Shown here: positions 41,123 through 59,525 of the stretch, piece after piece
Layout of the letters: every line of letters begins with the position of its first letter
Position numbering within the stretch: position 1 is the stretch's first letter
Assembly (NCBI GenBank): GCA_009773645.1
Contig: WSYB01000022.1
Location: 55,792 to 117,099, forward strand
Direction: 5' to 3'
Length of the DNA: 61,308 nt
Source of the DNA: Geobacteraceae bacterium
GTDB taxonomy: Bacteria > Desulfobacterota > Desulfuromonadia > Geobacterales > Geobacteraceae
The notes under the pieces: generated by a model
The model's database searches: none
What the model was told of the DNA's origin: nothing
What the model saw: only the letters and a program-made list of their open reading frames with translations
Program-made: the position numbers and the translations under genes

Positions 41123-41125
41123 TCT

Positions 41126-41185
41126 CCCCTCACCCCCAGCCCCTCTCCCATTGGGAGAGGGTGGCCGAAGGCCGGGTGAGGGTAA
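41126..41185. repeat. CCCTCACCC/TCTCCC hairpin repeat between arnB and arnC
   Basis: CCCCTCACCC, CCTCTCCCA-TTGGGAGAGG and GGGTGAGGG form a nested palindrome with an inner GGCCGAAGGCC. This sequence type is widespread in bacterial intergenic DNA (general knowledge). Confidence 0.8.
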
Positions 41186-41201
41186 TAAATGAGAATACCG
41201 T

Positions 41202-42140
41202 ATGCCCGGAAAACCCTACATCTCCATCATCATCCCGGTTTACAACGAGGAGGGAAATCTTCAGCCCCTCTTTGACCGTCTCTATCCGGTGATGCAAAAG
41301 ATCGGCAAGCCTTTCGAGATTATCTTCACCGACGACGGCTCCCGCGACCGGTCGCTTGACATCCTGAAAAGGCTGGCAGAAGCGTATCCGGAGATAAAGG
41401 TCGTGGAGTTCAACGGCAACTTCGGCCAGCACATGGCGATCCTCGCCGCCTTCGAAATGAGCGGCGGCGATATCGTCATCACCCTGGACGCCGACCTGCA
41501 GAACCCGCCGGAGGAGATTCCGAAGCTGGTGAGTGAGGTGGAAAAGGGGCACGACGTGGTGGGGACCGTCCGCCAGAACCGCCAGGACACTCTTTTCCGC
41601 AGACTCGCCTCCCGCATCGTCAACATCACCACCAACAAGATGACCGGAATGCGCATGAGCGACTACGGCTGCATGCTGCGCGCCTACCACCGCGACGTCA
41701 TCGACAACATCAATTGCTGCCAGGAAACGACCACCTTCATCCCCGCCCTGGCCCAGACGTTTGCCTCGAACCCGAGCGAGGTGGAGGTGGCCCACGCCGA
41801 GCGGGCCGAAGGGGAGAGCAAGTATTCCCTCTACAGACTGGTCAGGCTCAACTTCGATCTGATGACCGGCTTTTCCGTGGTGCCGCTCCAACTCTTCGCC
41901 CTCATGGGTATAGTGACTTCCCTTTTCTCCGTCCTCTTCGCCCTCCTCCTCCTGGTCAGGCGCTTCATCATCGGCGCCGAGGTGGAAGGGGTCTTCACCC
42001 TCTTCGCCATACTCTTTTTCTTCATCGGCATCATTATTTTCGGCATCGGGCTGGTGGGGGAATACGTGGGAAGGATCTATCAGGAAGTGCGCAGGAGGCC
42101 GCGGTACGTGGTGCGGAGGACGCACGGCTTCGGGGAATAA
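41202..42140 (+). CDS. arnC: Undecaprenyl-phosphate 4-deoxy-4-formamido-L-arabinose transferase
   Basis: A GT2 family enzyme of 312 residues. The N-terminal cytoplasmic domain shows ISIIIPVYNEEGNLQPLFDR, IIFTDDGSRDRSLDILKRLA and IVITLDADLQNPPEEIPKLV. Then comes VAHAERAEGESKYSLYRLVR, the family's catalytic loop region. Two C-terminal membrane helices are seen (LFALMGIVTSLFSVLFALLL and FTLFAILFFFIGIIIFGIGL). It attaches Ara4FN to the lipid carrier. It could be mistaken for a dolichol-phosphate mannose synthase-like enzyme, but the arn context decides. Confidence 0.93.
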   Translation: MPGKPYISIIIPVYNEEGNLQPLFDRLYPVMQKIGKPFEIIFTDDGSRDRSLDILKRLAEAYPEIKVVEFNGNFGQHMAILAAFEMSGGDIVITLDADLQNPPEEIPKLVSEVEKGHDVVGTVRQNRQDTLFRRLASRIVNITTNKMTGMRMSDYGCMLRAYHRDVIDNINCCQETTTFIPALAQTFASNPSEVEVAHAERAEGESKYSLYRLVRLNFDLMTGFSVVPLQLFALMGIVTSLFSVLFALLLLVRRFIIGAEVEGVFTLFAILFFFIGIIIFGIGLVGEYVGRIYQEVRRRPRYVVRRTHGFGE

Positions 42141-42157
42141 GAAAAATTCAAAAACAC

Positions 42158-42256
42158 GGGATTCGGGATCCGGGATCCGGAATTCGTAAAAAGCTTTAAG
42201 GTTCACGGTTCCCGATTCCCGATTCCCGGTTCCCGAGTCCCGGTTCACAAGTCCCA
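42158..42256. repeat. GATTCGGGATCCGGGATCC / GGTTCCCGATTCCCGATTCCC hairpin between arnC and the formyltransferase
   Basis: Units ATTCGGGATCCGGGATCCGG and GGTTCCCGATTCCCGATTCC are near complements across about 40 bases. Seven- and eight-base units are repeated within each arm. Confidence 0.7.
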
Positions 42257-42275
42257 AAATCGAGGGTTATTACGA

Positions 42276-43187
42276 TTGGCTGCACATACTAAAATAGTCG
42301 TCTGCGCTTACCATAACGTCGGCTACAGATGCCTGGAGGAACTGCTGGGCCAGGGGGCCGAGGTGGTGCTGCTCTTCACCCACGAGGACTCCCCCACAGA
42401 GGAGATATGGTTCGCCTCCGTGCGGGAGCTGGCCGAGAAAAACGGCATCCCGTACCTGACCAGCGATATCAATGAACCGGCCAACGTGGCCCGCCTCCGG
42501 GAGATCGCCCCCGATTTCATCTTCTCCTTCTACTACCGGAACATGATAAAAAGGGAGGTCCTTGACCTCCCCCGGCTGGGTGCGCTGAACCTGCACGGTT
42601 CCTATCTTCCCCGCTATCGGGGCCGGGTGCCGGTCAACTGGGCGGTCATAAACGGCGAATCGGAAACCGGCGCCACCCTCCATTATATGGTGGAAAAACC
42701 CGATGCCGGCGACATCGTCGATCAGGAAAAGGTGACCATCGCATTCACCGATACCGCCCTGAATGTGTTCAACAAGGTTACCGCCGCGGCGGCAAGGATC
42801 ATCTCCCGTTCTTATCCTCTGCTGGTTTCCGGAGAAGCGGCACGCATCCCCATGGACCTTTCAGCCGGCAGCTACTTCGGAGGCAGGAAGCCGGCCGACG
42901 GCCTGATCGACTGGAGAAAGAGCTCCCTGGCCATCTACAACCTCATCCGCGGCGTCACCCACCCCTACCCGGGAGCGTTCACCTACCTGGACGGGAAAAA
43001 GGTCATCATCTGGCAGGCCTGGCCGTTGGAGGGGGAAGGAGAAACAGGGCGGGTAATCTCCACGGAACCGCTGCTGGTCGGAACCGGCGAAGGCCTCTTG
43101 GAGATCAGATCGCTGCAACTGGAAGGGGAAGCGGAGACCACCGCCGCCGCTTTTGTTGAAAAGAAACCGCCGACGAAGTTCGAATAA
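42276..43187 (+). CDS. arnA: UDP-Ara4N N-formyltransferase (ArnA N-terminal domain as a separate gene)
   Basis: A 303-residue formyltransferase using 10-formyl-tetrahydrofolate. It shows VVCAYHNVGYRCLEELLGQG, FSFYYRNMIKREVLDLPRLG, ALNLHGSYLPRYRGRVPVNW with the catalytic Asn/His, and MVEKPDAGDIVDQEKVTIAF. In E. coli this domain is fused to the decarboxylase in ArnA; here it is free-standing. The start is a TTG at 42276 with GAGGG ten bases upstream; no better codon is in frame. It acts before ArnC. Confidence 0.9.
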   Translation: MAAHTKIVVCAYHNVGYRCLEELLGQGAEVVLLFTHEDSPTEEIWFASVRELAEKNGIPYLTSDINEPANVARLREIAPDFIFSFYYRNMIKREVLDLPRLGALNLHGSYLPRYRGRVPVNWAVINGESETGATLHYMVEKPDAGDIVDQEKVTIAFTDTALNVFNKVTAAAARIISRSYPLLVSGEAARIPMDLSAGSYFGGRKPADGLIDWRKSSLAIYNLIRGVTHPYPGAFTYLDGKKVIIWQAWPLEGEGETGRVISTEPLLVGTGEGLLEIRSLQLEGEAETTAAAFVEKKPPTKFE

Positions 43188-43209
43188 AAAACCAACCGGC
43201 TTCGAGAAA

Positions 43210-43290
43210 GGTCCAGCATGAGGAACGAGGAACGAGGTCCGAGGATTTGATTCTCGATCCTCGATCCTTTAACCTCGGACCTCCGTGCGC
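43210..43290. repeat. GAGGAACGAGGAACGAGG hairpin between the two arnA halves
   Basis: GAGGAACGAGGAACGAGGTC with CGAGGATTTGA is partly mirrored by CTCGATCCTCGATCC and CCTCGGACCTC. This gap lies exactly where the fused ArnA of enterics has its domain linker. Confidence 0.7.
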
Positions 43291-43330
43291 AGACGGCCCT
43301 TTATCGAAGCCGCACCAAGGAGAACGTTGA

Positions 43331-44371
43331 ATGAAAGTACTCATCTTAGGCGTCAACGGTTTTATTGGTAACGCCTTGACCCGCCGCATCCTCGACACCA
43401 CCGACTGGGAGGTGTACGGGCTCGACATGAGCGACAACAAGCTGGAGCACTCCATCGGCAATCCCCGTTTTCATTTCCTGGAAGGGGACATCACCATCAA
43501 CAAGGAGTGGATCGAATACAACATCAAGAAGTGCGACGTGGTGCTGCCGCTGGTGGCTATCGCCACGCCGGTCACCTATGTGAAGGACCCGCTCCGGGTA
43601 TTCGAGCTCGATTTCGAGGAGAACCTGAAGATTATCCGCCAGTGCGTGAAGTACAGCAAACGGGTCATCTTCCCTTCCACTTCCGAGGTGTACGGCATGA
43701 GCCCTGACCGGGAGTTCGACGAAGAGAGTTCACCACTCATGCTGGGTCCCATCAACAAAGAACGCTGGATATACTCCTGCGCCAAGCAGATGCTCGACCG
43801 TGTCATCTATGCATACGGCGAGCATGAAGGGCTGCAGTACACCCTGATTCGCCCCTTCAACTGGATCGGTCCCAAGCTGGACAGCATAAGCACCGCCAAA
43901 GAAGGAAGCTCCCGGGTCCTCACCCAGTTCCTTTACAACATCCTGGCGGGTGAGCCGATAAATCTCGTAGACGGCGGGAACCAGCGCCGCTCCTTCACCT
44001 ACGTTGAGGACGGAATTGACTGTCTTATGCGCATCATTGAAAATAAAAACGGCTGCGCGAACTCCGGTATCTTTAATATCGGCAACCCCGCCAACGATCT
44101 GTCGGTCAAGGAGTTGGCCCTTAAACTGAAGGGACTGATGAAGGAGTATCCCGCCTATCGCGAAAGGGCCGAGCAGTGCAACATAGTGGAAATATCATCG
44201 GACGAGTTTTACGGCAAAGGTTACCAGGACATGCTTAACCGCGTCCCTTCGATTAATAATGCCGAGAAAAAACTGGGGTGGCGGCCGGTCACCGACATTG
44301 ACGTTGCCCTCAGAAAAACCCTTGATTTCTATCTGGTGGAAGAGCGGGAAAAGATCGAACATCTGCTGTGA
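43331..44371 (+). CDS. arnA: UDP-glucuronate oxidative decarboxylase (ArnA C-terminal domain as a separate gene)
   Basis: A 346-residue short-chain dehydrogenase-like enzyme that oxidises and decarboxylates UDP-glucuronate to UDP-4-keto-pentose using NAD. It shows the Rossmann motif VLILGVNGFIGNALTRRILD, PLVAIATPVTYVKDPLRVFE, PSTSEVYGMSPDREFDEESS, and the catalytic YxxxK in RWIYSCAKQMLDRVIYAYGE. RPFNWIGPKLDSISTAKEGS and QRRSFTYVEDGIDCLMRII match the ArnA C-terminal domain closely. It starts the Ara4N pathway and is encoded apart from the formyltransferase. Confidence 0.93.
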   Translation: MKVLILGVNGFIGNALTRRILDTTDWEVYGLDMSDNKLEHSIGNPRFHFLEGDITINKEWIEYNIKKCDVVLPLVAIATPVTYVKDPLRVFELDFEENLKIIRQCVKYSKRVIFPSTSEVYGMSPDREFDEESSPLMLGPINKERWIYSCAKQMLDRVIYAYGEHEGLQYTLIRPFNWIGPKLDSISTAKEGSSRVLTQFLYNILAGEPINLVDGGNQRRSFTYVEDGIDCLMRIIENKNGCANSGIFNIGNPANDLSVKELALKLKGLMKEYPAYRERAEQCNIVEISSDEFYGKGYQDMLNRVPSINNAEKKLGWRPVTDIDVALRKTLDFYLVEEREKIEHLL

Positions 44372-44460
44372 GGAACGAGAAAAGAGGAACGGGGAGCGAG
44401 GTTAAAGGATCGAGGTTAAAGCCTCGAACCTCGAACCTCGAACCTCGAACCTCGGACCAT
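44372..44460. repeat. CGAACCTCGAACCTCGAACCT repeats between arnA (C-terminal) and arnD
   Basis: The unit CGAACCT is repeated four times in tandem after GGAACGGGGAGCGAGGTTAA and GGATCGAGGTTAAAGC, which are partly complementary. Variants of the same unit are at 43210 and 57350. Confidence 0.75.
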
Positions 44461-44461
44461 T

Positions 44462-45349
44462 ATGCCCCCCATCATCGCCATAAAAGTGGACGTGGACACC
44501 TACATCGGCACCCGTGAAGGGGTGCCGATGCTGCTGGAGATCCTCGACCGCTTCGGCATACATGCCACCTTTTACTTTTCCATGGGGCCCGACAACTCCG
44601 GCAAGGCGATCCGCCGCATCTTCCGCAAGGGTTTTCTGAAAAAGATGCTCAGAACCCGTGCTCCCTCCATTTACGGAGGTCGGACCCTCTTGTACGGCAC
44701 CATCCTCCCTCCCCCAATGATAGCGTCGTCATTCCCGGAGACTCTCAAGAAGACCGAACAAATGGGGCATGAGGTCGGCATTCACTGCTGGGACCATGTC
44801 AAATGGCATGACCTGCTTCCCTGGATGCCGAAAAAGACCGTGGCCATGGAGTTGGGGCGGGCCTGCGCCCTGTTCGAAGATATTCTCGGGCACCGGACGA
44901 AAACCACCGCAGCGCCGGGATGGACGGTCTCCGCCGATTCCCTGGAGATCCAGGACGCCATGTTCCTATCCTACTGCAGCGATTCCAGAGGCCACTCCCC
45001 CTTCTTCCCGGTATTTGACGGCAGACGCTTCAATACCCTGCAGATCCCTACCACACTACCCACCATGGACGAGCTTCTTGGCGAGAACGGCATCACCTCT
45101 GAGACCATCAACGACCACTATCTCTCCCTGATAAGGCCCGGCCTGAACGTCCACACTATCCACGCCGAACTGGAAGGAAGGGTGATGGCGCCGGTGTTCA
45201 TCGACCTTTTGCAACGCCTGCAGAAACAGGGGGCAAGCTTCATAACCCTGGCGGAAGCGGCGGCTGAGACCGGCAAGCATGCATCCGACTTCCCCCTTGC
45301 CATGGGGGAAATAGCCGGGCGCGCCGGGCTGGTGGCCACTCAGGGTTAA
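44462..45349 (+). CDS. arnD: 4-deoxy-4-formamido-L-arabinose-phosphoundecaprenol deformylase
   Basis: A 295-residue NodB-fold hydrolase that removes the formyl group from lipid-linked Ara4FN. Metal and catalytic motifs: IAIKVDVDTYIGTREGVPML, the metal pair in HEVGIHCWDHVKWHDLL, TTAAPGWTVSADSLEIQDAM, and SYCSDSRGHSPFFPVFDG. These match ArnD better than general polysaccharide deacetylases. It closes the arn cluster; no arnE/arnF flippase genes follow. A 345-base non-coding stretch with three palindromes separates it from the next gene. Confidence 0.93.
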   Translation: MPPIIAIKVDVDTYIGTREGVPMLLEILDRFGIHATFYFSMGPDNSGKAIRRIFRKGFLKKMLRTRAPSIYGGRTLLYGTILPPPMIASSFPETLKKTEQMGHEVGIHCWDHVKWHDLLPWMPKKTVAMELGRACALFEDILGHRTKTTAAPGWTVSADSLEIQDAMFLSYCSDSRGHSPFFPVFDGRRFNTLQIPTTLPTMDELLGENGITSETINDHYLSLIRPGLNVHTIHAELEGRVMAPVFIDLLQRLQKQGASFITLAEAAAETGKHASDFPLAMGEIAGRAGLVATQG

Positions 45350-45429
45350 TACCAGCTTTCACTGCCGCTCAGCACAACTCCAATTCCTCCCACAGTGAAA
45401 ATCATTAACGTATTACCTGCCGGTTTTAC

Positions 45430-45533
45430 GTAAACTTTGTTTACAAATGTAAACTTTGTTTACATAAGCCGTATCCTCCCACCCAGCCTTATTCTGCGCC
45501 GCTTTCGGCATCATTTTCGTAAACTTTGTTTAC
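45430..45533. promoter_or_regulatory. Three GTAAACTTTGTTTAC palindromes downstream of arnD
   Basis: Perfect 15-base palindromes lie at 45430-45444, 45449-45463 and 45519-45533. Offsets are 19 and 70 bases. The half-site GTAAAC resembles that of the operator array at 18719-18816. They lie 163 bases or more before the small helical gene at 45696 and are likely protein-binding sites. The rest of the 45350-45695 gap shows no gene. Confidence 0.65.
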
Positions 45534-45695
45534 ATTGCCCATCTTGCCCAAAAATCTCCTGGTGATAACTATCCGATATTATTCAATAAATTTGGCTCTG
45601 ATGTCTGGCATGTATCGTGTAATACAATATAGTGATGAATACATAAAAGTCCGACTGGCATTCGGCCGGGTTGTCGGGGCAAGGTGACAATATTT

Positions 45696-45998
45696 ATGGT
45701 AACCGAACAGATTTATACCCTAACAAATCAATGCCTGAAAGAAATTAAAAATGCCGGCATCGACCACATTGCGCAACTGCGCCTGGAATGTCTTTTCATC
45801 AGGCTGAAAAGGCATATCATTTCTTTATCCTTGGATTATCCGACCAATCGTGCTGCTGTAAACCAGAAAGATATTCGCAAACTTAAAACCCTCACTCAGC
45901 AGATAACTCACGCCGCTAACAAGGACGAAGCGGTAGCCGAATTAGAGAAACATGTTACGACCACAATAAAGGCGCTGGGGACGGTAGTGCCCCCTTGA
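45696..45998 (+). CDS. Small helical protein of unknown function
   Basis: A 100-residue soluble, mostly helical protein (IYTLTNQCLKEIKNAGIDHI, LRLECLFIRLKRHIISLSLD, KDIRKLKTLTQQITHAANKD). No membrane segment, cysteine cluster or known motif is visible. ATG 45696 is chosen because AAGGTGA precedes it; GTG 45684 is possible. It precedes the DUF2726 gene by about 55 bases on the same strand. Confidence 0.55.
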   Translation: MVTEQIYTLTNQCLKEIKNAGIDHIAQLRLECLFIRLKRHIISLSLDYPTNRAAVNQKDIRKLKTLTQQITHAANKDEAVAELEKHVTTTIKALGTVVPP

Positions 45999-46052
45999 AC
46001 AAGCTTATTCCGTGACCCTGATGACTATAACTCAATCCTGCGGATTATTTTC

Positions 46053-46775
46053 ATGATCCTGACCCTTGTTGCCAGATTTCTAAAAAGGAAGCAGACATTG
46101 CCCTACTTAAGCATCAAGCCTCCGTTTACACCTGCCGAGCGCTCTTTTCTGGAAATACTCGACCGGATTGTGGGTGAGGAGTACAGGATATTCGGCAAAA
46201 TGCGGCTCAGTGACATTATAAAGCCTGTGGGAGAGAGCTCCGGGAACACCCACACGATTGCAGACGACAAAGTTGAGCAAAAGAGTCTGGACTTCGTCAT
46301 CTGCCGTGCCGATGACCTCTCCCCGGTTGCGGTAGTTGAACTGACGGACATATCAGCCAGCCGGCGATTCCTTATGAAACGCGATGATTTTCTTGCCGAG
46401 GTTTTGTCAGCCGCGGGAATCCGCCTGATCCGCTTTGCGTCCCCCGCGAGCCGTTCTTTTCAGAGAGTCAGAGACATCCTTGCCGAAAACCTTTCCCTTG
46501 TCCCCCCCGTTTCAAAACCGCACTTACAGACATCCTCAGTTCGTAAATACGGGTCGGATATCCTGGAGAGGGCTCCTGTGGTTACTTTCCGGGTCTCCAG
46601 CGAAGAGCCCGCTTTTATGTGCCCTTTGTGCGGGGGAAAACTTGTCATGCTGAAGTCGACGAAAGGAATAAACAGCGGAAAACGTTTTTGGGCGTGTACG
46701 GCGTTTCCAAAGTGTACGACGGTGATCCCAATCTGCCAGACTGACAGTTCGGATTTTTCCCGGCGGGAATTCTAA
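46053..46775 (+). CDS. DUF2726 domain protein with C-terminal topoisomerase-type zinc finger
   Basis: A 240-residue protein. The DUF2726 part, a restriction-endonuclease-like fold, spans about residues 22-150: FTPAERSFLEILDRIVGEEY, LDFVICRADDLSPVAVVELT with the expected acidic and hydrophobic pattern, and FLAEVLSAAGIRLIRFASPA. The C-terminal zinc finger is CPLCGGKLVMLKSTKG followed by FWACTAFPKCTTVIP, akin to those of TopA. Such proteins are thought to act on DNA, but no activity is proven. Codon use is like that of the neighbours. Confidence 0.8.
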   Translation: MILTLVARFLKRKQTLPYLSIKPPFTPAERSFLEILDRIVGEEYRIFGKMRLSDIIKPVGESSGNTHTIADDKVEQKSLDFVICRADDLSPVAVVELTDISASRRFLMKRDDFLAEVLSAAGIRLIRFASPASRSFQRVRDILAENLSLVPPVSKPHLQTSSVRKYGSDILERAPVVTFRVSSEEPAFMCPLCGGKLVMLKSTKGINSGKRFWACTAFPKCTTVIPICQTDSSDFSRREF

Positions 46776-46858
46776 AACCCCCTCCCCATCCCTCTCCATC
46801 CTGGGGAGGGAGAAACCACTCCTCCCCCAAGCGGGGGGAGGTCGGGAGGGGGGTCTGG
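46776..46858. repeat. CCCCTCCCC/GGGGAGGG hairpin repeats before the NarL-type regulator
   Basis: CCCCCTCCCCATCCCTCTCC with TGGGGAGGGAG and CTCCCCCAAGCGGGGGGAGG form two adjacent hairpins. They are of the same sequence type as the elements at 11506 and 12221. Confidence 0.7.
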
Positions 46859-46932
46859 AATCGTGAAATATAAAGTGGTACAGCGTACTAGGAACACCAC
46901 CGTTACAAACCGAAAAAAACTGGAGGATTACC

Positions 46933-47586
46933 ATGAGTATCAGGGTTTTGCTTGCCGACGACCACAAGATAATTCGACAGGGCATACGCTCCATTCTGGA
47001 AAAGGAGTCCGGCTTCGAAGTCGTTGCCGAGGCGGAAACCGGCAGGATGGCAGTCCAGCTCGCGGGAAAGCTCCTTCCTGACGTGGTACTCATGGAGATA
47101 TCCATGCCGGAAATGAACGGCATCGAGGCTACCAGGAGGATCATAGCAGAAATTTCGGGGGTTCGGGTTCTCGCCCTCTCGATGCAGTATGACAGACAAT
47201 TTGTAGTTGAAGAGTTGAACGCGGGGGCAAGGGGGTATCTTATGAAAGACTGTACCTCGGAAGAGCTTGTGGAAGCGGTCCGAACCGTAGCCACTGACGA
47301 AATGTACCTCAGCTCAAAGATATCCAGGCTCATCGTCAAGGATTACATGCAAAACGTACCGGACTCTTTTTCCCCAAAGCCCTCGATCCTTACATTCCGC
47401 GAACTGGAGGTCCTCAAGCTCATCGGCGACGGGAAAAACACAAAAGAAATAGCCTCAGCCCTGGCTATCAGTATAAAGACCGTAGAGTCCCATCGACAGA
47501 AGATCATGCAAAAGCTCAAACTTTACAGTATCGCAGAATTGACCAAGTATGCCGTACGCGAAGGGTTGACCCCGCTTCAACAGTGA
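46933..47586 (+). CDS. NarL/FixJ-type response regulator with Glu at the phosphorylation site
   Basis: A 217-residue regulator. The receiver domain has the acidic pocket (LLADDHKIIRQGI, D9 and D10), the conserved Ser in VLALSMQYDR and the Lys in GYLMKDCTSEE. At the phosphoacceptor position the usual Asp is Glu55: DVVLMEISMPEMNG where relatives read LMDISMPxMNG. The C-terminal LuxR-type helix-turn-helix is intact (LTFRELEVLKLIGDGKNTKE, IKTVESHRQKIMQKL). The protein cannot take an aspartyl phosphate at this position; Glu may mimic the active state (inference). No kinase gene is adjacent. It converges with the maturase gene, four bases apart. Confidence 0.93.
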   Translation: MSIRVLLADDHKIIRQGIRSILEKESGFEVVAEAETGRMAVQLAGKLLPDVVLMEISMPEMNGIEATRRIIAEISGVRVLALSMQYDRQFVVEELNAGARGYLMKDCTSEELVEAVRTVATDEMYLSSKISRLIVKDYMQNVPDSFSPKPSILTFRELEVLKLIGDGKNTKEIASALAISIKTVESHRQKIMQKLKLYSIAELTKYAVREGLTPLQQ

Positions 47587-47590
47587 CCGG

Positions 47591-48858
47591 TCATCCTTTT
47601 TTCGGTCGAAGCCGCAGATCCTGCCGGATGAACTCCCCGAGCGTTGCGTCGAAATACGCCTTGCGGCAGTCCACATCGTCGATCCTGCCGTCGCGCAGCA
47701 GCTTGAGAAACCTGCAGCCGCCGAAGCAGAAGGGGAGATAGGCGCAGTCGAGGCATTCCTCCTTCTTCCAGACGTCCAGGTTGTGGGATGACCGGTAGTC
47801 GCCCAAGCCGCTTTTCAGGTCGCCGACAACGAGCCCCTCCCACCCGATAAAGGCGGGGCATTTCCAGATGGAGCCGTCATAGTTTATGACCGTGTCGTCC
47901 AGGAACTCCACCATGCAGGCGGCTGGAGCCGGTCTTGGGGTGTTGTACCCCCGTTTCAGAATCTCTTCGCGCAGAAACAGGCTCGCTTCATGGAGCCACG
48001 GCTCGCTGGAGCAATCGCACCCCGATTTGAAGTCGGGAATGCCTGCGCCACCAGCGAAAGCCTCGCCGGCGTGAGTCCCTCGGCAAGGAGGGAGTCGAGG
48101 AGGCGCGGGAACTCCCGGTAGTTGTCACGGGTGTAGTTACCCCCCACCTGGACTTTGATCACGTCGCAGACCGACTTGAGATTGTCGATGATCGCGGCAA
48201 ACGAGCCTTTACCCGAGACAAAGGGCCTGAAGCTGTCGTGGATATCCCGAGGCCCGTCGAGGGTGAACTTGGCCCCCTGCATGCCGAGCACCGCCAGTTC
48301 CTGCGCCACGGGGCGGGTAAGGAGGGTGCCGTTGGTGACGATGTTGAAGGAATAGTCGAGCCCCTCTGCCTGCGCCGACTTTTGCAGCCTTCCCGAGATG
48401 GATTTGATGAGGCCGGTGCTCAGAAGGGCCTCGCCGCCGTAAAAATCGAGTGCGACCTTTTTTCCGCGGGCGAGATGGTCCCGTTCGATCACCTCCACCA
48501 GGAGGTCGGCGGTCTCGGCGGACATGTAGCGCTTCCCCCTGATGGACCCTTCGTAGCAGTAGGTGCAGGCCAGGTTGCAGTCCAGATTCAGGACCACCAC
48601 GGCGCTGAATTTCCTCCGCCGCCGGTTGGCCTCGTCGAACCGGAGGCGCATCTCCTCTTTCTCCAGGGCAGGATCGGGGACCAGCATCCCCAGGCGGGCA
48701 AGGGTCTCCCGATCGGCGGCGGAGAGGGTCCCCGCCTCGATTGCATGGAGGGTGGATGCGGGGACGAGGATGAGCGAAGCCCGCCGGGTGGAGTAGAGGA
48801 GGAAGCCACCGGGCTTTTCAGGGTAAGGATAGATTTTGAGGTAACTGGATAGAAACAT
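47591..48858 (-). pseudogene. Radical SAM/SPASM peptide maturase (geopeptide type), frameshifted
   Basis: Two frames together make one enzyme of about 420 residues. The first (48858-47956) has a short N-terminal region and the radical SAM motif CNLACTYCYEG (CxxxCxxC), DFYGGEALLSTG and FNIVTNGTLLT. The SPASM part is in another frame: read from about 48050 it gives GIPDFKSGCDCSSEPWLHEA and LREEILKRGYNTPRPAPAAC, running on into CPAFIGWEGLVVGDL and ECLDCAYLPFCFGGCRF. The frame changes near 48035-48075, equivalent to a one-base loss. It may be a real mutation, programmed slippage or a sequencing error. The 36-residue precursor gene lies just upstream. No good ribosome site precedes ATG 48858. Confidence 0.85.
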
Positions 48859-48867
48859 GGGAGGACC

Positions 48868-48893
48868 AAAAAAAGGGGAGATGTGATCTCCCC
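48868..48893 (-). terminator. Terminator/attenuator between precursor peptide and maturase
   Basis: On the minus strand GGGGAGAT-CAC-ATCTCCCC is followed by seven T residues, a perfect eight-pair stem. It lies 30 bases after the precursor stop and ends ten bases before the maturase ATG. This would give much precursor mRNA and limited read-through to the enzyme. Confidence 0.88.
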
Positions 48894-48923
48894 ATGCATC
48901 GGAAAAAGCCGATTCAGAATCTG

Positions 48924-49034
48924 TCAGTAACTAAAGATGAATATAAGACTTGCAAAGCAGCAGGAGGCCATTTCATCGAGGGATTCTTCCATACCGTTAT
49001 CCAGGATGACCATCTCTTCTCTCACAACGTCCAT
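48924..49034 (-). CDS. Geopeptide-like RiPP precursor, 36 residues
   Basis: An ORF of 36 codons with a strong GAGGAGGT site eight bases before the ATG. The leader is acidic (MDVVREEMVILDNGMEESLD) and the C-terminal core is EMASCCFASLIFIFSY, with a Cys-Cys pair and an aromatic/aliphatic tail. It sits directly upstream of the radical SAM/SPASM gene and before a terminator, the layout expected for a ribosomally made, modified peptide. From memory, Geobacter genomes encode such short 'geopeptides' beside dedicated maturases; the product is unknown. The Cys pair is the likely site for sulfur-to-carbon linkage (inference). Confidence 0.82.
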   Translation of the reverse strand: MDVVREEMVILDNGMEESLDEMASCCFASLIFIFSY

Positions 49035-49060
49035 TGCACTTACCTCCTCGGGTGTGATTT

Positions 49061-49078
49061 ACATCCCCTGGGGGATGT
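49061..49078. promoter_or_regulatory. Perfect 18-base palindrome upstream of the precursor gene
   Basis: ACATCCCCTGGGGGATGT is an eight-base-pair inverted repeat with a two-base centre. It lies 26 bases before the precursor ATG, in the leader or promoter region. It could be an operator or an mRNA hairpin beside the ribosome site. Confidence 0.5.
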
Positions 49079-49094
49079 TTGTTCGGAAACAACT

Positions 49095-49242
49095 CACATA
49101 TGGACAAACCTTGCATTTTTTGATACGGTCATTTGCCCCTTCGCCTGCGTCCTTAGACGGTTTTTTCGCCTTGCCCGCGTGGAGCGGGGGACGCAAGAAG
49201 CGCAAACTAAGGCGTTTGCCCGGAAACGGGAGAACCGTTTGG
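49095..49242. other. Structured leader between precursor gene and TonB receptor gene
   Basis: The region can fold through CCCGC-GTGGA-GCGGG, GCCCG-GAAA-CGGGA (GNRA-type loop), GCGTCC/GGACGC and CCTTAG/CTAAGG pairs. It would be in the 5' leader of the minus-strand precursor transcript and upstream of the plus-strand receptor gene. I could not match it to a known riboswitch; the conserved blocks of c-di-GMP-I and cobalamin riboswitches are missing. Confidence 0.4.
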
Positions 49243-49252
49243 AAACTTATAT

Positions 49253-49268
49253 AGCAGAACCTGTGCCA
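49253..49268 (-). promoter_or_regulatory. Sigma-54-like promoter facing the precursor gene
   Basis: On the minus strand TGGCACAGGTTCTGCT has GG and GC ten bases apart and matches TGGCACG-N4-TTGCW except at two positions. Transcription would start near 49242, giving a leader of about 200 bases before the peptide. A sigma-54 activator gene is encoded nearby at 54125. Confidence 0.5.
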
Positions 49269-49319
49269 TGTCGAGAAAAAAATTTTAATATAGGCTCAGG
49301 GCTTTCATCGGTTGACCTT

Positions 49320-51158
49320 ATGCGGATACATTTCCTGAAAATCGCCATAACCCTCCTCGCTGCGCTCCTCCTCTATCCCTGCCCCCCGGCCCGGGCGGAG
49401 TCGGAGGAGGAGATGCAGACCCTCGACATGTTCTACGAGGCGAAGGACCTGGTGGTAGCCGCCACGAGAAACCCGAAACCCCTCTCCCAGGTGGCGGAGA
49501 ACCTCACCGTTATTTCCGCCGGCGAGATCGAGGCGATGAACGCCCACACCCTCACCGACGTCCTCGTTACCGTCACCGGCGTCCAGGTGGACAGACGCGG
49601 CGGTCCCGGCAGTTTATCAGGGTTCAATATCCAGGGTGCCCCGTTCAACCATATCCTGGTCCTGATCGACGGCGTCCCCTTCAACAACCTCTCCGACAAC
49701 TTCGCCGATATCGGCGTCATCCCGGTCCGGCAGATCGAGCGGATCGAGATCATCAAGGGGCCCGCCACCTCCTCGTGGGGACAGGCCCTGGGGGGGGTGA
49801 TCAATATCGTCACCAAATCCCCCCCGGAAGAAGGGAAACTCGGCGGGGCACTGTCGGCCTCCATCGGAGAGAGAACGACCGGGGATTACCTCGGCGAGGC
49901 CGCAGGGGCCCTCGGCAGGTTCGGTTATTACCTCTTTGCCGGGAAACTCGCCTCCGACGGCCTCCTCCCCAACAACGACGCAGACGAAACCAACGTCTAC
50001 ACAAAGCTGCGCTGGGACATGCCGGAACGGGGCAACCTTCTCCTCGCCCTCAGCTACCACGAGGGGGAACGGGGAGAGTTTGCCTCCCCGGTTTTCGACC
50101 TCTCTTCCCGTTTTGATTACCGCTATCTCCTGCTCACCCCCACCCTCACCTGCGCCCTGACCGACCGGCTCACTCTGGAGCTGGCGGCGAGGTTATCGCA
50201 GAAGGATACCGAAATAACCCGCACCCTGTTGAGCACAGGCGCGGAGCTGATGAGGGTCAAAGCCGACGAGTCGGTCCTGGGGGGGAGCGCCAAGCTCACC
50301 TGGCGGCAGGAGATGAACAACCTGGCGCTCGGCGCCGACTTCGACCACGGCGACACGAAACTGAACAACAGTCTCGTGCCGCTTGGGGGATTGACGCGCA
50401 GGATCGACAAAGTGGGGATCTTTGTCAACGACACGCTGACAATAAAGGGGTTGGCCGTCACCCCCGGCATCAGGTACGACCGTTCCAACACCCACGGCGA
50501 CTTCCTGAGCCCGAGCCTCGGCGCGACCTACACCCTGACCGACCGCACCCTTCTGCGCGCCTATGCGGCCAGGGGGTACAGTCTTCCCTCTCTCCTCCTC
50601 GAACGCGGCACGGAAAAAGTCTGGACATACCAGGCCGGCATCGAATCGACCGAGATCGGGTATCTCTGGATGAAGGCCACCCTGTTCAGAAATGACACCT
50701 GGGACATCCCCTCCGTGGATTTCGCCACCGGCGCGGTGAAAAACGAAAAACACCGCAAGCAGGGGGTGGAAGTGGAGATAAAGACCGTCCCCTTCCATAA
50801 CACCTCCCTTGCCGCCGGCTTTGCCTATGTTGACGCCGGGAACCGGGACACCGGAGAGAGACTGACCGGTATCGCCCGCAACACCTTCGATCTCGGGCTT
50901 CATTACGACGACGGGCGCTCCCTCCGGGGCGCATTGACGGGACATTATATCCGGTGGGTTGCCGATCCGGGCTCAAACGGCAAATTCAGCGCGGTCATAT
51001 GGGACCTCAACCTGGCAAAGAAAATCTTCGGCGCCGAAAGCACGGCCGTCGAGCTGTTCCTTACCGCCCACAACATCTTCAACGGCGCACAGTATCAGAA
51101 TGAAACGTTCAAGAACCCCCGAAGGTGGTTTGAGGGGGGGATCAGATTCAAATTCTGA
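49320..51158 (+). CDS. TonB-dependent outer membrane receptor
   Basis: A 612-residue protein with a signal peptide (MRIHFLKIAITLLAALLLYP). The plug domain follows: NPKPLSQVAENLTVISAGEI, TGVQVDRRGGPGSLSGFNIQ, ILVLIDGVPFNNLS and IERIEIIKGPATSSWGQALG. The 22-stranded barrel runs to the terminal aromatic strand RRWFEGGIRFKF. It imports a scarce ligand with energy from TonB-ExbBD. The ligand is unknown; no cobalamin riboswitch or Fur box is obvious. ATG 49320 begins the signal peptide; the longer frame back to 48894 is antisense to the precursor peptide. It is followed by a periplasmic binding protein and a two-component system. Confidence 0.9.
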   Translation: MRIHFLKIAITLLAALLLYPCPPARAESEEEMQTLDMFYEAKDLVVAATRNPKPLSQVAENLTVISAGEIEAMNAHTLTDVLVTVTGVQVDRRGGPGSLSGFNIQGAPFNHILVLIDGVPFNNLSDNFADIGVIPVRQIERIEIIKGPATSSWGQALGGVINIVTKSPPEEGKLGGALSASIGERTTGDYLGEAAGALGRFGYYLFAGKLASDGLLPNNDADETNVYTKLRWDMPERGNLLLALSYHEGERGEFASPVFDLSSRFDYRYLLLTPTLTCALTDRLTLELAARLSQKDTEITRTLLSTGAELMRVKADESVLGGSAKLTWRQEMNNLALGADFDHGDTKLNNSLVPLGGLTRRIDKVGIFVNDTLTIKGLAVTPGIRYDRSNTHGDFLSPSLGATYTLTDRTLLRAYAARGYSLPSLLLERGTEKVWTYQAGIESTEIGYLWMKATLFRNDTWDIPSVDFATGAVKNEKHRKQGVEVEIKTVPFHNTSLAAGFAYVDAGNRDTGERLTGIARNTFDLGLHYDDGRSLRGALTGHYIRWVADPGSNGKFSAVIWDLNLAKKIFGAESTAVELFLTAHNIFNGAQYQNETFKNPRRWFEGGIRFKF

Positions 51159-51174
51159 CCAATAAAGTTAATTG

Positions 51175-52044
51175 ATGATTAATCTCTTTATCACCATACT
51201 GACCATCTGCGTCTCTCTTGGCTCAACGGCACACGGCCATGAAATCCTGGTTCTCCAGAGTTTGCAGGTCAAGCCGTATGAAGAGGCGTTGCGCGGCTTT
51301 AAAAGCGCCTGCAGCGCCGATATGAGGCGGCTGACAGTCTCCGACATGGAAGGGGCCGACCTCACCAGAACGATCCATGAGGAAAGGCCCGGCCTGATAC
51401 TTGCCATTGGCGCGGACGCCCTCAAAAAGATAAAGCGCATCAAGGATATCCCCATAATTTACCTCATGGTGCTGAATCCCCAGCAGATCGCAGGGGGGGG
51501 GAAAAATATCACCGGCGTCAGCATGAATATCCCGCCGGAGAAGTACCTTGCCCTGCTGAGAAAGATCCTCGCTCCCCCCAAAATGGTCGGCCTCCTCTAT
51601 GACCCCGTCAAAACCGGTTCTTTAGTAAAAAAAGCGCAACAGGCAGCCGGAATGATGGGGATTGAACTGCTGGCAAAGGAGGTGCGCAGGTCCAAGGACG
51701 TGCCGGAACTGCTGAACGGCATGAAAGGGGCGATAAACGCCTTCTGGATGCTCCCCGACACGACCGTCGTGACTCCCGAGACCGTGGAGTTTTTCCTCCT
51801 CTTCTCCCAGGAACACAAGATACCCATACTCACTTTTGCCAATAAATACGTGGAGATGGGGGCGCTCATCTCCCTGGACATCGATGCGTTCGACCTGGGG
51901 AGACAGGCTGGAGAAATGGCAAAAAAGGCGCTGGAAGGAACACCCGTGCGAGACCTGCCGAGGTCGGACGCAAGACGCTCGGTGTTGAAAATCAACCGTA
52001 ATGTGGCAAGGAAACTGGGCATAAACCCCGATACTATCGAATGA
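51175..52044 (+). CDS. ABC_sub_bind family periplasmic binding protein
   Basis: A 289-residue protein with a signal peptide (MINLFITILTICVSLGSTAHG). The family (PF04392) is recognised by VLQSLQVKPYEEALRGFKSA, GLILAIGADALKKIKRIKDI, PIIYLMVLNPQQIAGGGKNI, TGVSMNIPPEKYLALLRKIL and DAFDLGRQAGEMAKKALEGT. It lies 16 bases after the TonB receptor gene and 25 bases before a sensor kinase gene, with no permease or ATPase gene. It may therefore serve as a ligand-binding partner of the kinase rather than a transporter subunit (inference). Confidence 0.88.
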   Translation: MINLFITILTICVSLGSTAHGHEILVLQSLQVKPYEEALRGFKSACSADMRRLTVSDMEGADLTRTIHEERPGLILAIGADALKKIKRIKDIPIIYLMVLNPQQIAGGGKNITGVSMNIPPEKYLALLRKILAPPKMVGLLYDPVKTGSLVKKAQQAAGMMGIELLAKEVRRSKDVPELLNGMKGAINAFWMLPDTTVVTPETVEFFLLFSQEHKIPILTFANKYVEMGALISLDIDAFDLGRQAGEMAKKALEGTPVRDLPRSDARRSVLKINRNVARKLGINPDTIE

Positions 52045-52069
52045 ATAGCGATCAACAGGGATCGAACGG

Positions 52070-54112
52070 ATGAGATTTTCATATCCCCTGCACAGTTTGA
52101 GGGAAAGTTTCCAGGCCAAGGTCTTTTTCATATCGACGCTTTTCGTTGTGGCCGTCTCTTTTTCTTTCGTTATATTCTTCACCCAGCACGATAAAAAATC
52201 CCAGACCGATCAACTTGTCAGGCAGGGGGAATTGCTCGCAAGCCTCCTTGCCCACAACAGCAGGCTCGGAGTCTTTGCGGCAAACGGTGCGATGCTGAAT
52301 GAAGCGGCTGACGGCATCATGCAACATAAGGACGTCCTTTCCGTCGTTATTTTCAACGCATCCGGGCAACTGCTTGCCCATAAGACCAGACCCGGCTATG
52401 AAAAACGTACAGGGGCTCTCTTAAAGGATACCGGGAGCGCGGGAAAAATCGCTTCCCTCGCGCAGAAGCTTCAACTCTCTGCTCACTTTCACGGCACGGA
52501 CACAATCGAAATCTTTGCCCCGGTCTTGTCCAGAGCCGGTTACACGTCGGCGGAAGCCCTCTTTTTCCGTGAACAGCCAACCCATGCGAAAGATAACGTC
52601 ATCGGCCTGGTAGGAATCATTCTGGACAAGGAGGGCCTGAATAAAAGGCTCCACAGTCTGGTATTATTCGCCGTTCTGATTATGGCTGTCTTTTTGCTGA
52701 TCGGTTCCCTGGTTGCCTATCTGATGGCCAGGGGGATCACCAAGCCGCTTAACAATCTGATGGAAGGGGTTAACGCCCTCGGTTCGAAAGGCATTTTCAG
52801 GAAGGTTTCCATTGAAACAGGGGATGAGATAGGAAAAGTCGCCATGGCCTTCAATAAAATGATCGACTCCCTGGAACGCAGAGAAGTTGAAAAACGGCAG
52901 CTGGAAGAGCAACTGAGGCATGCCCAGAAAATGGAGGCCAAGGAGGAATGGGAGCGGACCTTCGACACCGTGCCCGACCTTGTAGCCATCCTTGACAGGG
53001 AATATCGCATTGTGCGCATTAATAAGGCCATGGCGGACCGTCTGGTGATTTCCAAGGAAGATGCGATCGGTCTGAAGTGTCATGAACTCTTCCACGGCTC
53101 CGCATCGCCTCACGAACTCTGTCTTTGCGCCGAAAACCGTGCCGGCGGCGAGACGTACGAGGCGGAAATCCACGAAGAAAAACTCGACTGTTATTTCTGG
53201 ATAACGGTTTCCCCTTTAAAGAGGAATGACGGAGAAGTTATCGGCTCCGTCCATATGGCGCGTGACATAACCCAGCGCAAGCGAGCCGAAGCGGAGAAGA
53301 AAGCGATTCAGGCCAAGCTGATCCAGACCAACAAAATGACGTCGCTCGGCCTCCTCGTATCGGGCCTTGCCCACGAAGTCAACAACCCCAACAACAATAT
53401 CATGTTCACCGCCCATCTCCTTGCCAAGTCCTGGAAAGACGCCGAACCGATCCTCGACAGATACTACCGTGAAGAAGGGGACTTCCGAATCGGAGGACAC
53501 CTGTTTTCCCAAGTGCGGGATACTCTGCCCCACCACATTACAGGAATAACGGAAAATTCCCGCCGCATCGAAGGGATCATCAAAAACCTGAAGAACTTCG
53601 TGCGCAAGGGGAAAGCCGACCTTAATTCACCCATGGATGTCAACCGTACCGTATCCGTCGCCGCTTCCATTCTCAACAACCAGATAAGGAAATATACCGG
53701 GCATTTCAAGCTTTGTTTGACCGAAGGCCTGCCGACAACCAGGGGGAATCCGCAGCAAATAGAACAGGTTGTCATCAACCTTATCATGAACGCGCTCCAG
53801 GCGCTCCCGGACAAAGAGCGGGCGGTCCGGGTCTCCACGTCGCTTGACAGTCATGGGGGGTTTGTCATCGTGGAAGTCCATGATGAAGGGTGCGGCATGC
53901 CCAGGGAGGTCAGGGAGAGAATTTTCGAACCCTTTTTCTCCACGAAGCTGGAGAGCGGAGGGACCGGCCTCGGGCTCGCCATTTCCAACTTTATCATCAC
54001 GGAACACAAAGGCCTGTTGGAGTTTGATTCCGAACCCGGAAAAGGAACGACCGCAGTTATCAAGTTGCCGCTGGGAGAGGGACCAAAAGGTTCGAGGTTC
54101 GAACAATATTAA
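52070..54112 (+). CDS. Membrane sensor histidine kinase
   Basis: A 680-residue kinase. A first membrane helix (FFISTLFVVAVSFSFVIFF) leads to a periplasmic domain of about 160 residues, then a second helix (LVLFAVLIMAVFLLIGSLVA). The cytoplasmic part has HAMP (ARGITKPLNNLMEGVNALGS), a PAS domain (DTVPDLVAILDREYRIVRIN) with cysteines in CHELFHGSASPHELCLCAEN, the H-box GLAHEVNNPNNN with the phosphohistidine H435, and the ATPase boxes INLIMNALQALP, DEGCGMP and GGTGLGLAIS. It probably phosphorylates the sigma-54 activator encoded 12 bases downstream and may sense the ligand bound by the preceding periplasmic protein. Confidence 0.93.
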   Translation: MRFSYPLHSLRESFQAKVFFISTLFVVAVSFSFVIFFTQHDKKSQTDQLVRQGELLASLLAHNSRLGVFAANGAMLNEAADGIMQHKDVLSVVIFNASGQLLAHKTRPGYEKRTGALLKDTGSAGKIASLAQKLQLSAHFHGTDTIEIFAPVLSRAGYTSAEALFFREQPTHAKDNVIGLVGIILDKEGLNKRLHSLVLFAVLIMAVFLLIGSLVAYLMARGITKPLNNLMEGVNALGSKGIFRKVSIETGDEIGKVAMAFNKMIDSLERREVEKRQLEEQLRHAQKMEAKEEWERTFDTVPDLVAILDREYRIVRINKAMADRLVISKEDAIGLKCHELFHGSASPHELCLCAENRAGGETYEAEIHEEKLDCYFWITVSPLKRNDGEVIGSVHMARDITQRKRAEAEKKAIQAKLIQTNKMTSLGLLVSGLAHEVNNPNNNIMFTAHLLAKSWKDAEPILDRYYREEGDFRIGGHLFSQVRDTLPHHITGITENSRRIEGIIKNLKNFVRKGKADLNSPMDVNRTVSVAASILNNQIRKYTGHFKLCLTEGLPTTRGNPQQIEQVVINLIMNALQALPDKERAVRVSTSLDSHGGFVIVEVHDEGCGMPREVRERIFEPFFSTKLESGGTGLGLAISNFIITEHKGLLEFDSEPGKGTTAVIKLPLGEGPKGSRFEQY

Positions 54113-54124
54113 AGAGGATAGCGC

Positions 54125-55570
54125 ATGAACCATGCAAGCAATTCGCACCTTCCGGTCCTCCTTGTTGACGACGAGCCGGAGATTCTTGTTCTCACCAAAA
54201 TGACCCTCGGCAGCGAAGGGATATACAACGTCCTGACGATTGACGACAGCCGCAAGGTCATCCCGCTTCTGGAAAAAGAGAAGGTATCGGCAATCATCCT
54301 CGACCTCATGATGCCGTATCTATCCGGGACCGAACTCCTGGCAAGCATTGCCGGCAACTTTCCCGACATTCCGGTTATCGTCATGACCGCCGCTGACGAA
54401 GTGGAAACAGCCGTAGAGTGTTTGAAAACAGGGGCATTTGATTACCTCCTTAAACCTGTGGACCCGAACCGTCTCGTATCGGCTGTGCAAAAAGCCATCA
54501 AGCTGAATTCCCTCGAGAATGAAGTATCCTCCCTCAAGGAGTATCTCCTCACGGGCCGTCTTGAACACGCAGAGGCGTTTGCGGAGATCATAACCTGCAG
54601 CAGGAAGATGCGGGCAATTTTTCAGTATGCCGAGGTGATATCAAAGTCCCTGCATCCGATTTTAATAACCGGCGAAACCGGTGTGGGCAAGGACCTGATG
54701 GCCAACGCCATATACAAACTGAGCGGCGTGAAAGGCCCCTTCATAACCGTTAACGTAGCCGGCCTCGATGATGTCGTATTTTCCGATACCCTCTTCGGGC
54801 ACAAAAGGGGGGCGTTTACCGGAGCAAATTCGCCACGGGAGGGTCTCATCAGTAAAGCCGCCGGCGGCACCCTGTTTCTCGACGAAATCGGCGATCTCAA
54901 TCCCCTGTCCCAGGTCAAACTTCTGCGCCTTTTGCAGGGACAGGATTACTATCCCCTGGGATCGGATGTTCTGAAATCGAGCGATGCACGCATTATCGTC
55001 GCCACAAACCACGACCTCCCGCGATTGATTGCCGCGGGGGAATTCCGCAAGGATCTCTACTACCGCCTCTGCGCCTACCAGATTCATATCCCGCCCCTCA
55101 GCGAACGGCCGGAGGATTTGCCTCTGCTTCTCCATCATTTTATTGAGAAAGCGGCAACATCTCTCAACAAAGCAAAACCGGTCCCCTCTCCCCGCTTGCT
55201 GACGCACCTTGAAGCCAGTCTGTTTCCGGGCAACGTCCGGGAACTCCAGGCCATGGTTTATGATGCCGTTGCCCGTCACCGGACCGGCATGCTCTCCCTT
55301 GAAAGTTTCCCCGGCATGAGAAAAACCGCTGCTGCAAGAGCCGTCACCGCGGTTTCTGCCGCGGCCAAAGATGCTGATGAGCTCTGGAAGCTTTTCGGCA
55401 GGTTTCCAACGATCGAGGAGATGGAAGAATATATGGTCACAACGGCAATGAAACTTGCCGACGGCAAACAGGGCTTTGCCGCTTCACTTTTGGGCATCAC
55501 TCGACAGGGTCTTTACAAACGGATAAAACATTCGAAAATATCAAATTCCCCAAAGATAAACGGCAAGTAG
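54125..55570 (+). CDS. Sigma-54-dependent response regulator (NtrC family)
   Basis: A 481-residue enhancer-binding protein. The receiver has the phosphoacceptor D60 in IILDLMMPYLSG and the acidic pocket VDDEPEI. The AAA+ domain shows Walker A (ITGETGVGKDLMANAI), the sigma-54 contact GAFTGA (KRGAFTGANSPREG), Walker B (GGTLFLDEIGDL) and the arginine finger region FRKDLYYRLCAYQI. The C-terminal Fis-type helix-turn-helix is ASLLGITRQGLYKRIKH. With the preceding kinase it forms a two-component system whose targets would need a sigma-54 promoter, such as the one at 49253-49268 (inference). Confidence 0.95.
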   Translation: MNHASNSHLPVLLVDDEPEILVLTKMTLGSEGIYNVLTIDDSRKVIPLLEKEKVSAIILDLMMPYLSGTELLASIAGNFPDIPVIVMTAADEVETAVECLKTGAFDYLLKPVDPNRLVSAVQKAIKLNSLENEVSSLKEYLLTGRLEHAEAFAEIITCSRKMRAIFQYAEVISKSLHPILITGETGVGKDLMANAIYKLSGVKGPFITVNVAGLDDVVFSDTLFGHKRGAFTGANSPREGLISKAAGGTLFLDEIGDLNPLSQVKLLRLLQGQDYYPLGSDVLKSSDARIIVATNHDLPRLIAAGEFRKDLYYRLCAYQIHIPPLSERPEDLPLLLHHFIEKAATSLNKAKPVPSPRLLTHLEASLFPGNVRELQAMVYDAVARHRTGMLSLESFPGMRKTAAARAVTAVSAAAKDADELWKLFGRFPTIEEMEEYMVTTAMKLADGKQGFAASLLGITRQGLYKRIKHSKISNSPKINGK

Positions 55571-55669
55571 CAGCTCATCCACCTGTGCCCGTCCATGGTT
55601 TTGTGATATTTTTTCTTGTTTTTTCAATACTTGCCTGATATTTTAGCAGACTTCACACAGGAATGACCG

Positions 55670-55891
55670 GTGACCTGTAAACGATATTTTCACATCACGG
55701 GCCGCGATCTGGTTTACCTCAAATTCATCATGGAAGCCTACGAAGGGGTTGCAACCTTGAGCACGGCGGACAAAAGGAACGGGGTCGTCGTGATCGCATA
55801 CAGCGATTTTTTTGCAGAAACGGTGAACGATTTGCTGGCAACATTACGGGAGGAAATATCCCTGGTTGAAGTTGAAGAGCCATCGAAATAA
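55670..55891 (+). CDS. DUF4911 domain protein
   Basis: A 73-residue protein: YFHITGRDLVYLKFIMEAYE, GVATLSTADKRNGVVVIAYS and FFAETVNDLLATLREEISLV. It fits the DUF4911 family of small single-domain proteins with no known function. The start is GTG 55670 with AGGA upstream. It ends 30 bases before tldD on the same strand, and I recall this pairing in related genomes, so a role linked to TldD is possible. Confidence 0.78.
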   Translation: MTCKRYFHITGRDLVYLKFIMEAYEGVATLSTADKRNGVVVIAYSDFFAETVNDLLATLREEISLVEVEEPSK

Positions 55892-55921
55892 AAAATCTGT
55901 CATCCAGAGGGACCGTTTACC

Positions 55922-57304: not shown

Positions 57305-57309
57305 CGGCG

Positions 57310-57384: not shown

Positions 57385-57400
57385 TTTTTTTAGCCAGGGA

Positions 57401-59470: not shown

Positions 59471-59525
59471 CCCAGCATTTCAAAGAGGACACCAACACAA
59501 TCGACGGAAAAAGGAGAAAGAAGCA

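Follow-up and report, generated by a model that had tools for sequence, protein, structure and literature searches.

The window, i.e. the whole stretch of 61,308 nucleotides that was analysed, carries a short precursor gene, an intrinsic-terminator-like hairpin and a radical SAM/SPASM maturase on its minus strand. Genes for a TonB-dependent receptor, a PF04392 substrate-binding protein, a sensor histidine kinase and an NtrC-type response regulator run divergently from the precursor (Table 1). It is regarded as practically certain that the locus encodes a geopeptide-type precursor and a maturase. The first-pass annotation of this DNA had described the peptide, the hairpin and the maturase, and had overlooked the rest of the module (receptor, binding protein and kinase) as well as the break in the maturase.

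Table 1. Features of the geopeptide-type locus, in window coordinates.
Feature	Position	Strand	Basis and remarks
Maturase, second frame (SPASM half)	47591-48055	minus	TIGR04280, 244.1 bits, model positions 282-427
Radical SAM/SPASM maturase, first frame (N-terminal domain and radical SAM core)	47956-48858	minus	TIGR04280, 414.5 bits, model positions 1-274
Intrinsic-terminator-like hairpin in the precursor/maturase gap	48868-48893 (stem-loop 48893-48875)	minus	Hairpin scan; GGGGAGATCACATCTCCCC followed by T7
Geopeptide-type precursor, 36 codons	48924-49034	minus	Profile HMM scores; MDVVREEMVILDNGMEESLDEMASCCFASLIFIFSY
Shine-Dalgarno sequence of the precursor	49042-49048	minus	Sequence; AGGAGGT
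Candidate sigma-54-like site	49253-49268	minus	TGGCACAGGTTCTGCT, 11/12 positions; 220 nt upstream of the precursor
TonB-dependent receptor	49320-51158	plus	Pfam (plug PF07715, barrel PF00593), AlphaFold2
PF04392 substrate-binding protein	51172-52044	plus	Pfam; signal-peptide-like start (TTG 51172 or ATG 51175)
Sensor histidine kinase	52070-54112	plus	Two hydrophobic segments flanking an sCache_4-like region; HAMP, PAS, HisKA (below cut-off), HATPase
NtrC-type sigma-54-dependent response regulator	54125-55570	plus	Domain matches

Precursor, hairpin and maturase

The features originally ascribed to the peptide, a 36-codon ORF behind a strong ribosome site with an acidic leader and a Cys-Cys core ending in a hydrophobic tail, are all present. 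The leader contains the motif MVILDNG and the Cys-Cys pair is followed by a ten-residue hydrophobic tail, the C-terminal stretch being ...ASCCFASLIFIFSY. Its proposed likeness to the geopeptides was borne out by a leave-one-out profile HMM of 103 precursor sequences, built with the window ORF excluded, in which this ORF scored 33.2 bits (E 2.7e-9) and the runner-up among the 1438 stop-to-stop segments of the window 8.5 bits. The search against the TIGRFAM geopeptide models, recommended at that time, gave a TIGR04280 score above the cut-off of 400 for the first maturase frame alone, and a weak TIGR04229 match for the peptide (22.7 bits, E 5.9e-5), below the curated cut-off of 30. In a TIGR04229 search of the whole genome (G000) the window ORF was not recovered, and the best match lay elsewhere (13.4 bits). 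This cut-off is strict, as it is reached in 14 of 141 genomes of the order, compared to 118 of 132 maturases having a precursor-like ORF; the window peptide is therefore termed geopeptide-type and not a TIGR04229 member. The term reflects its context, i.e. a short ORF with leader motif and Cys-Cys directly upstream of a TIGR04280 maturase.

TIGR04280 was found above cut-off in 101 of the 141 genomes of the order. From the order, 132 stretches yielded 132 maturases with a 5' end at 128 loci, that of the window among these, after exclusion of 8 of 140 maturase ORFs lacking a 5' end. A lack of conservation of the short ORF beside orthologous maturases had been named as an argument against a precursor; instead, a precursor-like ORF sharing the leader motif (above 8 bits, at most 700 nt upstream) was present at the 118 maturases mentioned, including the window's, five of them scoring just 11-17 bits. 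Fourteen maturases were left without such an ORF, two of which have less than 200 nt of upstream sequence. For the 116 distinct precursor ORFs of at least 20 bits, Cys-Cys was found in 113 and C-X-C in two, the remaining one being a spurious ORF. Since the search seed contained the leader motif, conservation of this motif is partly built in; that of Cys-Cys is not, as a Cys was demanded merely somewhere in the last 18 residues. The tails are variable, either hydrophobic or with Arg/Lys at the end, and no conserved second ligand residue follows the Cys-Cys in the 116 distinct precursors. Folding of the whole precursor transcript was no better than that of shuffles (z 1.23).

The hairpin starts thirty bases past the precursor stop and has a perfect 8 bp stem with a loop of 3. 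The maturase ATG at 48858 lies nine bases beyond the T-run, with no Shine-Dalgarno sequence ahead of it. A scan of positions 46000-51500 alone revealed 9 terminator-like sites against a shuffle mean of 6.3, which is not significant. Among homologous precursor-maturase gaps of 15-260 nt, to which the survey was confined, a perfect terminator-like hairpin with T-run occurred in 66 of 114, where 4.3 were expected from dinucleotide shuffles. The Shine-Dalgarno match averaged 5.7 nt for 122 precursors versus 3.7 nt for 118 maturases. Both the perfect terminator hairpin and the unequal ribosome sites of the first-pass annotation were thus confirmed, and as they recur among relatives, the layout of high peptide and low enzyme that had been read from them is a trait of the family. 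A partial terminator suffices for this layout, without regulated read-through.

Sigma-54-like sites matching at least 10 of 12 positions and directed at the peptide were counted in 16 of 116 upstream regions (window included), with 3.6 expected and several of the sites coming from near relatives; on the opposite strand the enrichment was smaller (8 versus 3.4 expected). This enrichment is suggestive and would fit the NtrC-type regulator predicted at many loci. Rfam gave no match above gathering score in window positions 40000-60000, hence no cobalamin riboswitch, and none of the latter in 10 relatives, where one molybdenum and one c-di-GMP-I riboswitch were detected, both more than 3 kb from the peptide. 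The stretch 49105-49260 occurs only once in the genome. Elsewhere in the window, a long GC-rich imperfect intergenic palindrome (46777-46854) looks like a repeat element, its best Rfam match being a microRNA family far under cut-off.

The two maturase frames together match nearly the whole TIGR04280 model, and no intact full-length frame spans the radical SAM and SPASM parts. Homology of the first frame ends near 48037 and the frame shift falls ahead of the SPASM domain. Between two conserved residues, relatives have 42 nt (14 residues) and the window 11 nt, a net loss of 31 nt, which is too large for a one-base sequencing slip and may still be accounted for by wrong assembly. Read by eye, both halves keep their invariant cysteines: CNLACTYC (CxxxCxYC) is located in the first frame and the later ones in the second. 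Together with an RRE-like N-terminus these are the features of radical SAM/SPASM RiPP maturases. In the model of a relative's maturase (L230) the N-terminus is formed by three strands followed by helices, which we take to be RRE-like. The radical SAM/SPASM partner proposed for the peptide was therefore correctly identified (TIGR04280), while a working enzyme could not be upheld for this strain.

Six maturases of relatives are likewise interrupted or truncated, away from contig ends. In G115 (L211:8901-9130) an internal deletion has left a precursor leader and, behind it in another frame, the last 33 maturase residues (E 5.6e-9), beside a receptor, binding protein and kinase that are still open. 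A bias towards loss of the maturase with the receptor kept was considered and is not claimed, since at four other loci (L092, L093, L132 and L139) the receptor is split instead.

Because the maturase is frameshifted, peptide production in the window strain is doubtful. With the receptor, binding protein, kinase and regulator open, the strain may be able to respond while making no peptide itself; alternatively, the locus may be in decay. That the window copy is a decaying remnant and no longer has a function is possible, though somewhat doubtful. This reading is supported by the frameshift in the sole TIGR04280 maturase among the matches listed for this genome (down to 127.8 bits), and by G115 with just its maturase 3' end. 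Against it, the precursor, its ribosome site, the terminator and all four divergent genes are intact, and misassembly of the draft (78 contigs) could have produced the frameshift.

The adjacent receptor module and its distribution

The AlphaFold2 model of the receptor (pLDDT 87.1) shows a plug and a barrel of 22 strands, and the receptor is the sole PF07715 match in its genome. Its best fold matches are BtuB, and the structure of Cir with microcin V is also found among the fold matches. Linkage of the receptor module was assessed by similarity to the window's genes at those 103 maturases, from 99 loci including the window, that are flanked by 4 kb or more on either side. A receptor was present within 4.5 kb of 101 maturases, a binding protein within 5.5 kb of 100, and a kinase and an NtrC-type regulator within 6 kb of 90 and 59, respectively. 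Receptor and PF04392 protein occurred together at 100 of the 103, the exceptions being one L074 maturase and those in L187 and L191. Locus L074 carries two maturases and three near-identical tandem precursors with one receptor module. A hand count of the plug domains in 13 genomes gave 38, of which 16 are located next to a geopeptide maturase. Four genomes (G000, G020, G026 and G047) have exactly one plug domain each, located at the geopeptide locus, and all four contain ExbD and TonB.

The module also exists without a maturase. Twenty loci were hand-picked among the matches listed for a PF04392 protein away from a detected maturase, and all 20 had a receptor and 17 a kinase; the module can thus serve other ligands. 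In four cases (L212, L214, L215 and L216) the contig ends 0.2-0.9 kb from the start side of the receptor, so that a peptide or maturase could sit beyond. A search for other CC peptides at the 20 loci returned chance-like ORFs only, with filters that also missed the known precursor of L203. This orphan precursor (L203:8751-8870, MREEHDDLLVLEEGSDTEMPMTCICTTSVTKIK) has a C-I-C core and lies beside a receptor, binding protein and kinase; no maturase was detected in the 12.8 kb, and the genome has at least two other maturases. A Cys-Cys precursor was also seen close to the contig end in L212, at a maturase-free receptor locus. In nine genomes of one genus (L197-L200, L204-L208) there is a second receptor/binding-protein cassette without maturase and with a divergent large kinase.

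PF04392 proteins usually have a PF06541 permease as partner. No PF06541 permease was found in the 13 genomes examined, that of the window included, which favours sensing over import. PF04392 proteins elsewhere in the same genomes are equally without PF06541, so a permease of another kind is possible. No exporter or protease was recognised in the widespread neighbour families, as judged by Pfam on 10 representatives of recurrent clusters (seven without match). The other recurrent clusters mostly look like frames opposite module genes or like neighbours shared by close relatives.

Outside the order, a scan of genome contigs revealed relatives in Nitrospirota and Desulfobacteraceae, of which 23 of the 79 loci found were inspected; no relative was found in viral contigs by a search sensitive to close relatives only. 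Nine Nitrospirota loci have a receptor in eight cases, a binding protein in seven and a kinase in seven, with the absences located at contig ends. All nine show a short ORF with near-terminal Cys-Cys upstream of the maturase, although five of these peptides (L232, L234, L237, L240 and L249) score only 3.5-6.2 bits in the HMM and were chosen by position and Cys-Cys. These five candidate precursors have Lys/Ala-rich, partly histone-like leaders and a short Cys-Cys core at the end. Gene order mostly differs from that in the window: at five of the nine loci receptor, peptide, maturase, binding protein and kinase follow on one strand, and at four of these an NtrC-type regulator comes next. Neither a receptor nor a binding protein lies close to the more distant enzymes L250, L252 and L253 (29-31% identity), though an NtrC-type regulator is present at L250. 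A Methanosaeta bin (L253:1-7840) contains a row of six radical SAM homologues.

Covariation and possible function

Covariation was analysed by partial Mantel tests on identity matrices of 94 complete loci (499 permutations, p floor 0.002). From the 132, 28 had been dropped for having no CC precursor of at least 20 bits or a maturase shorter than 400 aa, the window among these, and 10 more for too short a receptor or binding protein. Given the maturase, the core was correlated with the receptor (partial r 0.285, p 0.002), a value in which such tests leave some shared-ancestry effect; the leader gave 0.056 (p 0.07) with quadratic and 0.116 with linear correction. Given the receptor, the leader was linked to the maturase (0.357, p 0.002) and the core showed a small link (0.099). 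Dereplication to 60 and 42 loci gave core-receptor values of 0.261 and 0.147 (p 0.002 and 0.008) and leader-receptor values of -0.006 and -0.036, and for 78 divergent loci these were 0.264 and 0.023, respectively. The core-receptor pattern also survived permutation inside maturase clusters. Such a division would be expected from recognition of the leader by the maturase and of the core by the receptor.

Between core and kinase, given the maturase, the value was -0.013 for 79 loci, compared to 0.239 for core and receptor on the same set. For core and binding protein it was 0.176 (p 0.002), and 0.054 when the receptor was also controlled for (p 0.038; p 0.002 when permuting within maturase clusters). 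With the receptor positions sorted on the AlphaFold2 model, extracellular loops gave 0.311 and periplasmic turns 0.260, the loops being not clearly higher than matched barrel positions (p about 0.07). When the receptor was examined by sliding windows and by loop sets, the strongest segments fell in extracellular loops 3, 4 and 11 and part of the plug.

These results can be combined into a model for the relatives with a working maturase. The RRE-like N-terminus of the enzyme would bind the leader, and the core would be modified around the near-invariant Cys-Cys, probably by a thioether or related crosslink by analogy with the nearest solved relatives. The partial terminator and unequal ribosome sites would provide plenty of peptide and little enzyme. 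The mature core would leave the cell by a route without a recognised exporter, bind the adjoining TonB-dependent receptor as its ligand and reach the periplasm through it; there, the core or its cargo may be presented by the PF04392 protein to the histidine kinase in the membrane and its sigma-54 response regulator. From this chain of receptor uptake, binding protein and kinase, we infer that the locus works as a peptide uptake-and-sensing module. On the covariation of the sequences, the core is rather probably the ligand of the adjacent receptor. For relay of the signal via binding protein and kinase the chances are judged to be even, and the full reading, an exported modified peptide that is received by the adjacent receptor and feeds a periplasmic two-component sensor, is held to be about as probable as its opposite.

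The same genes could also belong to a metallophore system, in which the modified Cys-Cys peptide would capture metal outside the cell and return with it through the receptor, while the kinase reports the status of the metal or complex. A RiPP with a TonB receptor is the methanobactin layout (PMC3621798), and the near-invariant Cys-Cys would agree with such a role. The tails offer no conserved second ligand residue, however, crosslinks could use up all Cys, and the widespread neighbour families include no recognisable metal transporter or metal enzyme, which makes a metallophore rather unlikely. Slightly lower still is our estimate for import of another compound, e.g. a corrinoid, with the peptide as a regulator or accessory and not the ligand. 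The 20 maturase-free loci and the B12 receptors leading both fold matches and NCBIfam score could indicate this, but the latter score is far below cut-off (TIGR01779, 118.8 versus 599.7), no cobalamin riboswitch was detected in the regions searched, and the receptor covaries with the core and not with the leader; this explanation is considered unlikely. Peptide antibiotics and bacteriocins entering via TonB receptors exist, and the variable tails, hydrophobic or Arg/Lys-ended, might suit a secreted antimicrobial or kin-recognition RiPP with the receptor as entry port, but no immunity or export gene was recognised in the widespread neighbour families and such a system would not usually come with a conserved binding protein and kinase, so that this is very improbable.

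Should the uptake-and-sensing model hold, with the peptide as receptor ligand, the only TonB-dependent receptor of some of these bacteria would have a modified peptide as its cargo. This would represent a new peptide-sensing route across the Gram-negative envelope, testable in Geomonas paludis or Geomonas anaerohicana. In a broader and speculative version, which we think improbable, geopeptides, as radical-SAM-modified Cys-Cys peptides with variable tails, would be peptide autoinducers or messengers of Gram-negative anaerobes, acting via a dedicated TonB receptor, binding protein, kinase and sigma-54 regulator; that such signalling spans Geobacter-like genomes and Nitrospirota is put forward with equal reserve. 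Receptor-only genomes, perhaps including that of the window, would then be listeners or cheaters.

Comparison with known systems

The geopeptide family has a database name and is little studied; nothing on it (TIGR04280, TIGR04229) was found in a literature search whose coverage left out most subscription journals. The combination of a RiPP, TonB receptor, PF04392 protein and histidine kinase was not described in the literature searched, nor in the available parts of PMC4289311, PMC3403914 and PMC3621798. The window locus resembles the geopeptide system, widespread in the order, in its maturase, in the leader motif and in the Cys-Cys of its precursor. It differs by the TIGR04229 score under cut-off, the hydrophobic tail and the frameshifted maturase.

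The best PDB sequence match of the first maturase frame, and the best fold match of the maturase model of a relative, is 5why/5wgg, which we take to be CteB, a thioether-forming radical SAM RiPP maturase. Both enzymes have an RRE-like N-terminus, a radical SAM core and SPASM, but the identity of CteB to the window-type maturase is about 20%, and its precursor sequence is quite unlike the geopeptide-type precursor.

Copper-loaded methanobactin is re-imported by the TonB-dependent MbnT. Methanobactin operons likewise encode a RiPP together with a TonB-dependent transporter, and some also carry a regulatory pair (PMC3621798). They differ from the window locus by MbnB/MbnC chemistry, a MATE exporter and, in some, FecIR-type regulation, where the window has a radical SAM enzyme, no recognised exporter, and a PF04392 protein with a histidine kinase.

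PqqU (9c4o) is also a TonB-dependent receptor for a RiPP product, in this case PQQ, whose synthesis involves a radical SAM/SPASM enzyme. PqqU is distant from the window's receptor (17% identity in the fold match), and we know of no kinase linked to it. In LuxP-LuxQ, a periplasmic binding protein hands a signal to a membrane histidine kinase, as is proposed here for the PF04392 protein; that signal is a small non-peptide molecule and no outer-membrane receptor takes part.
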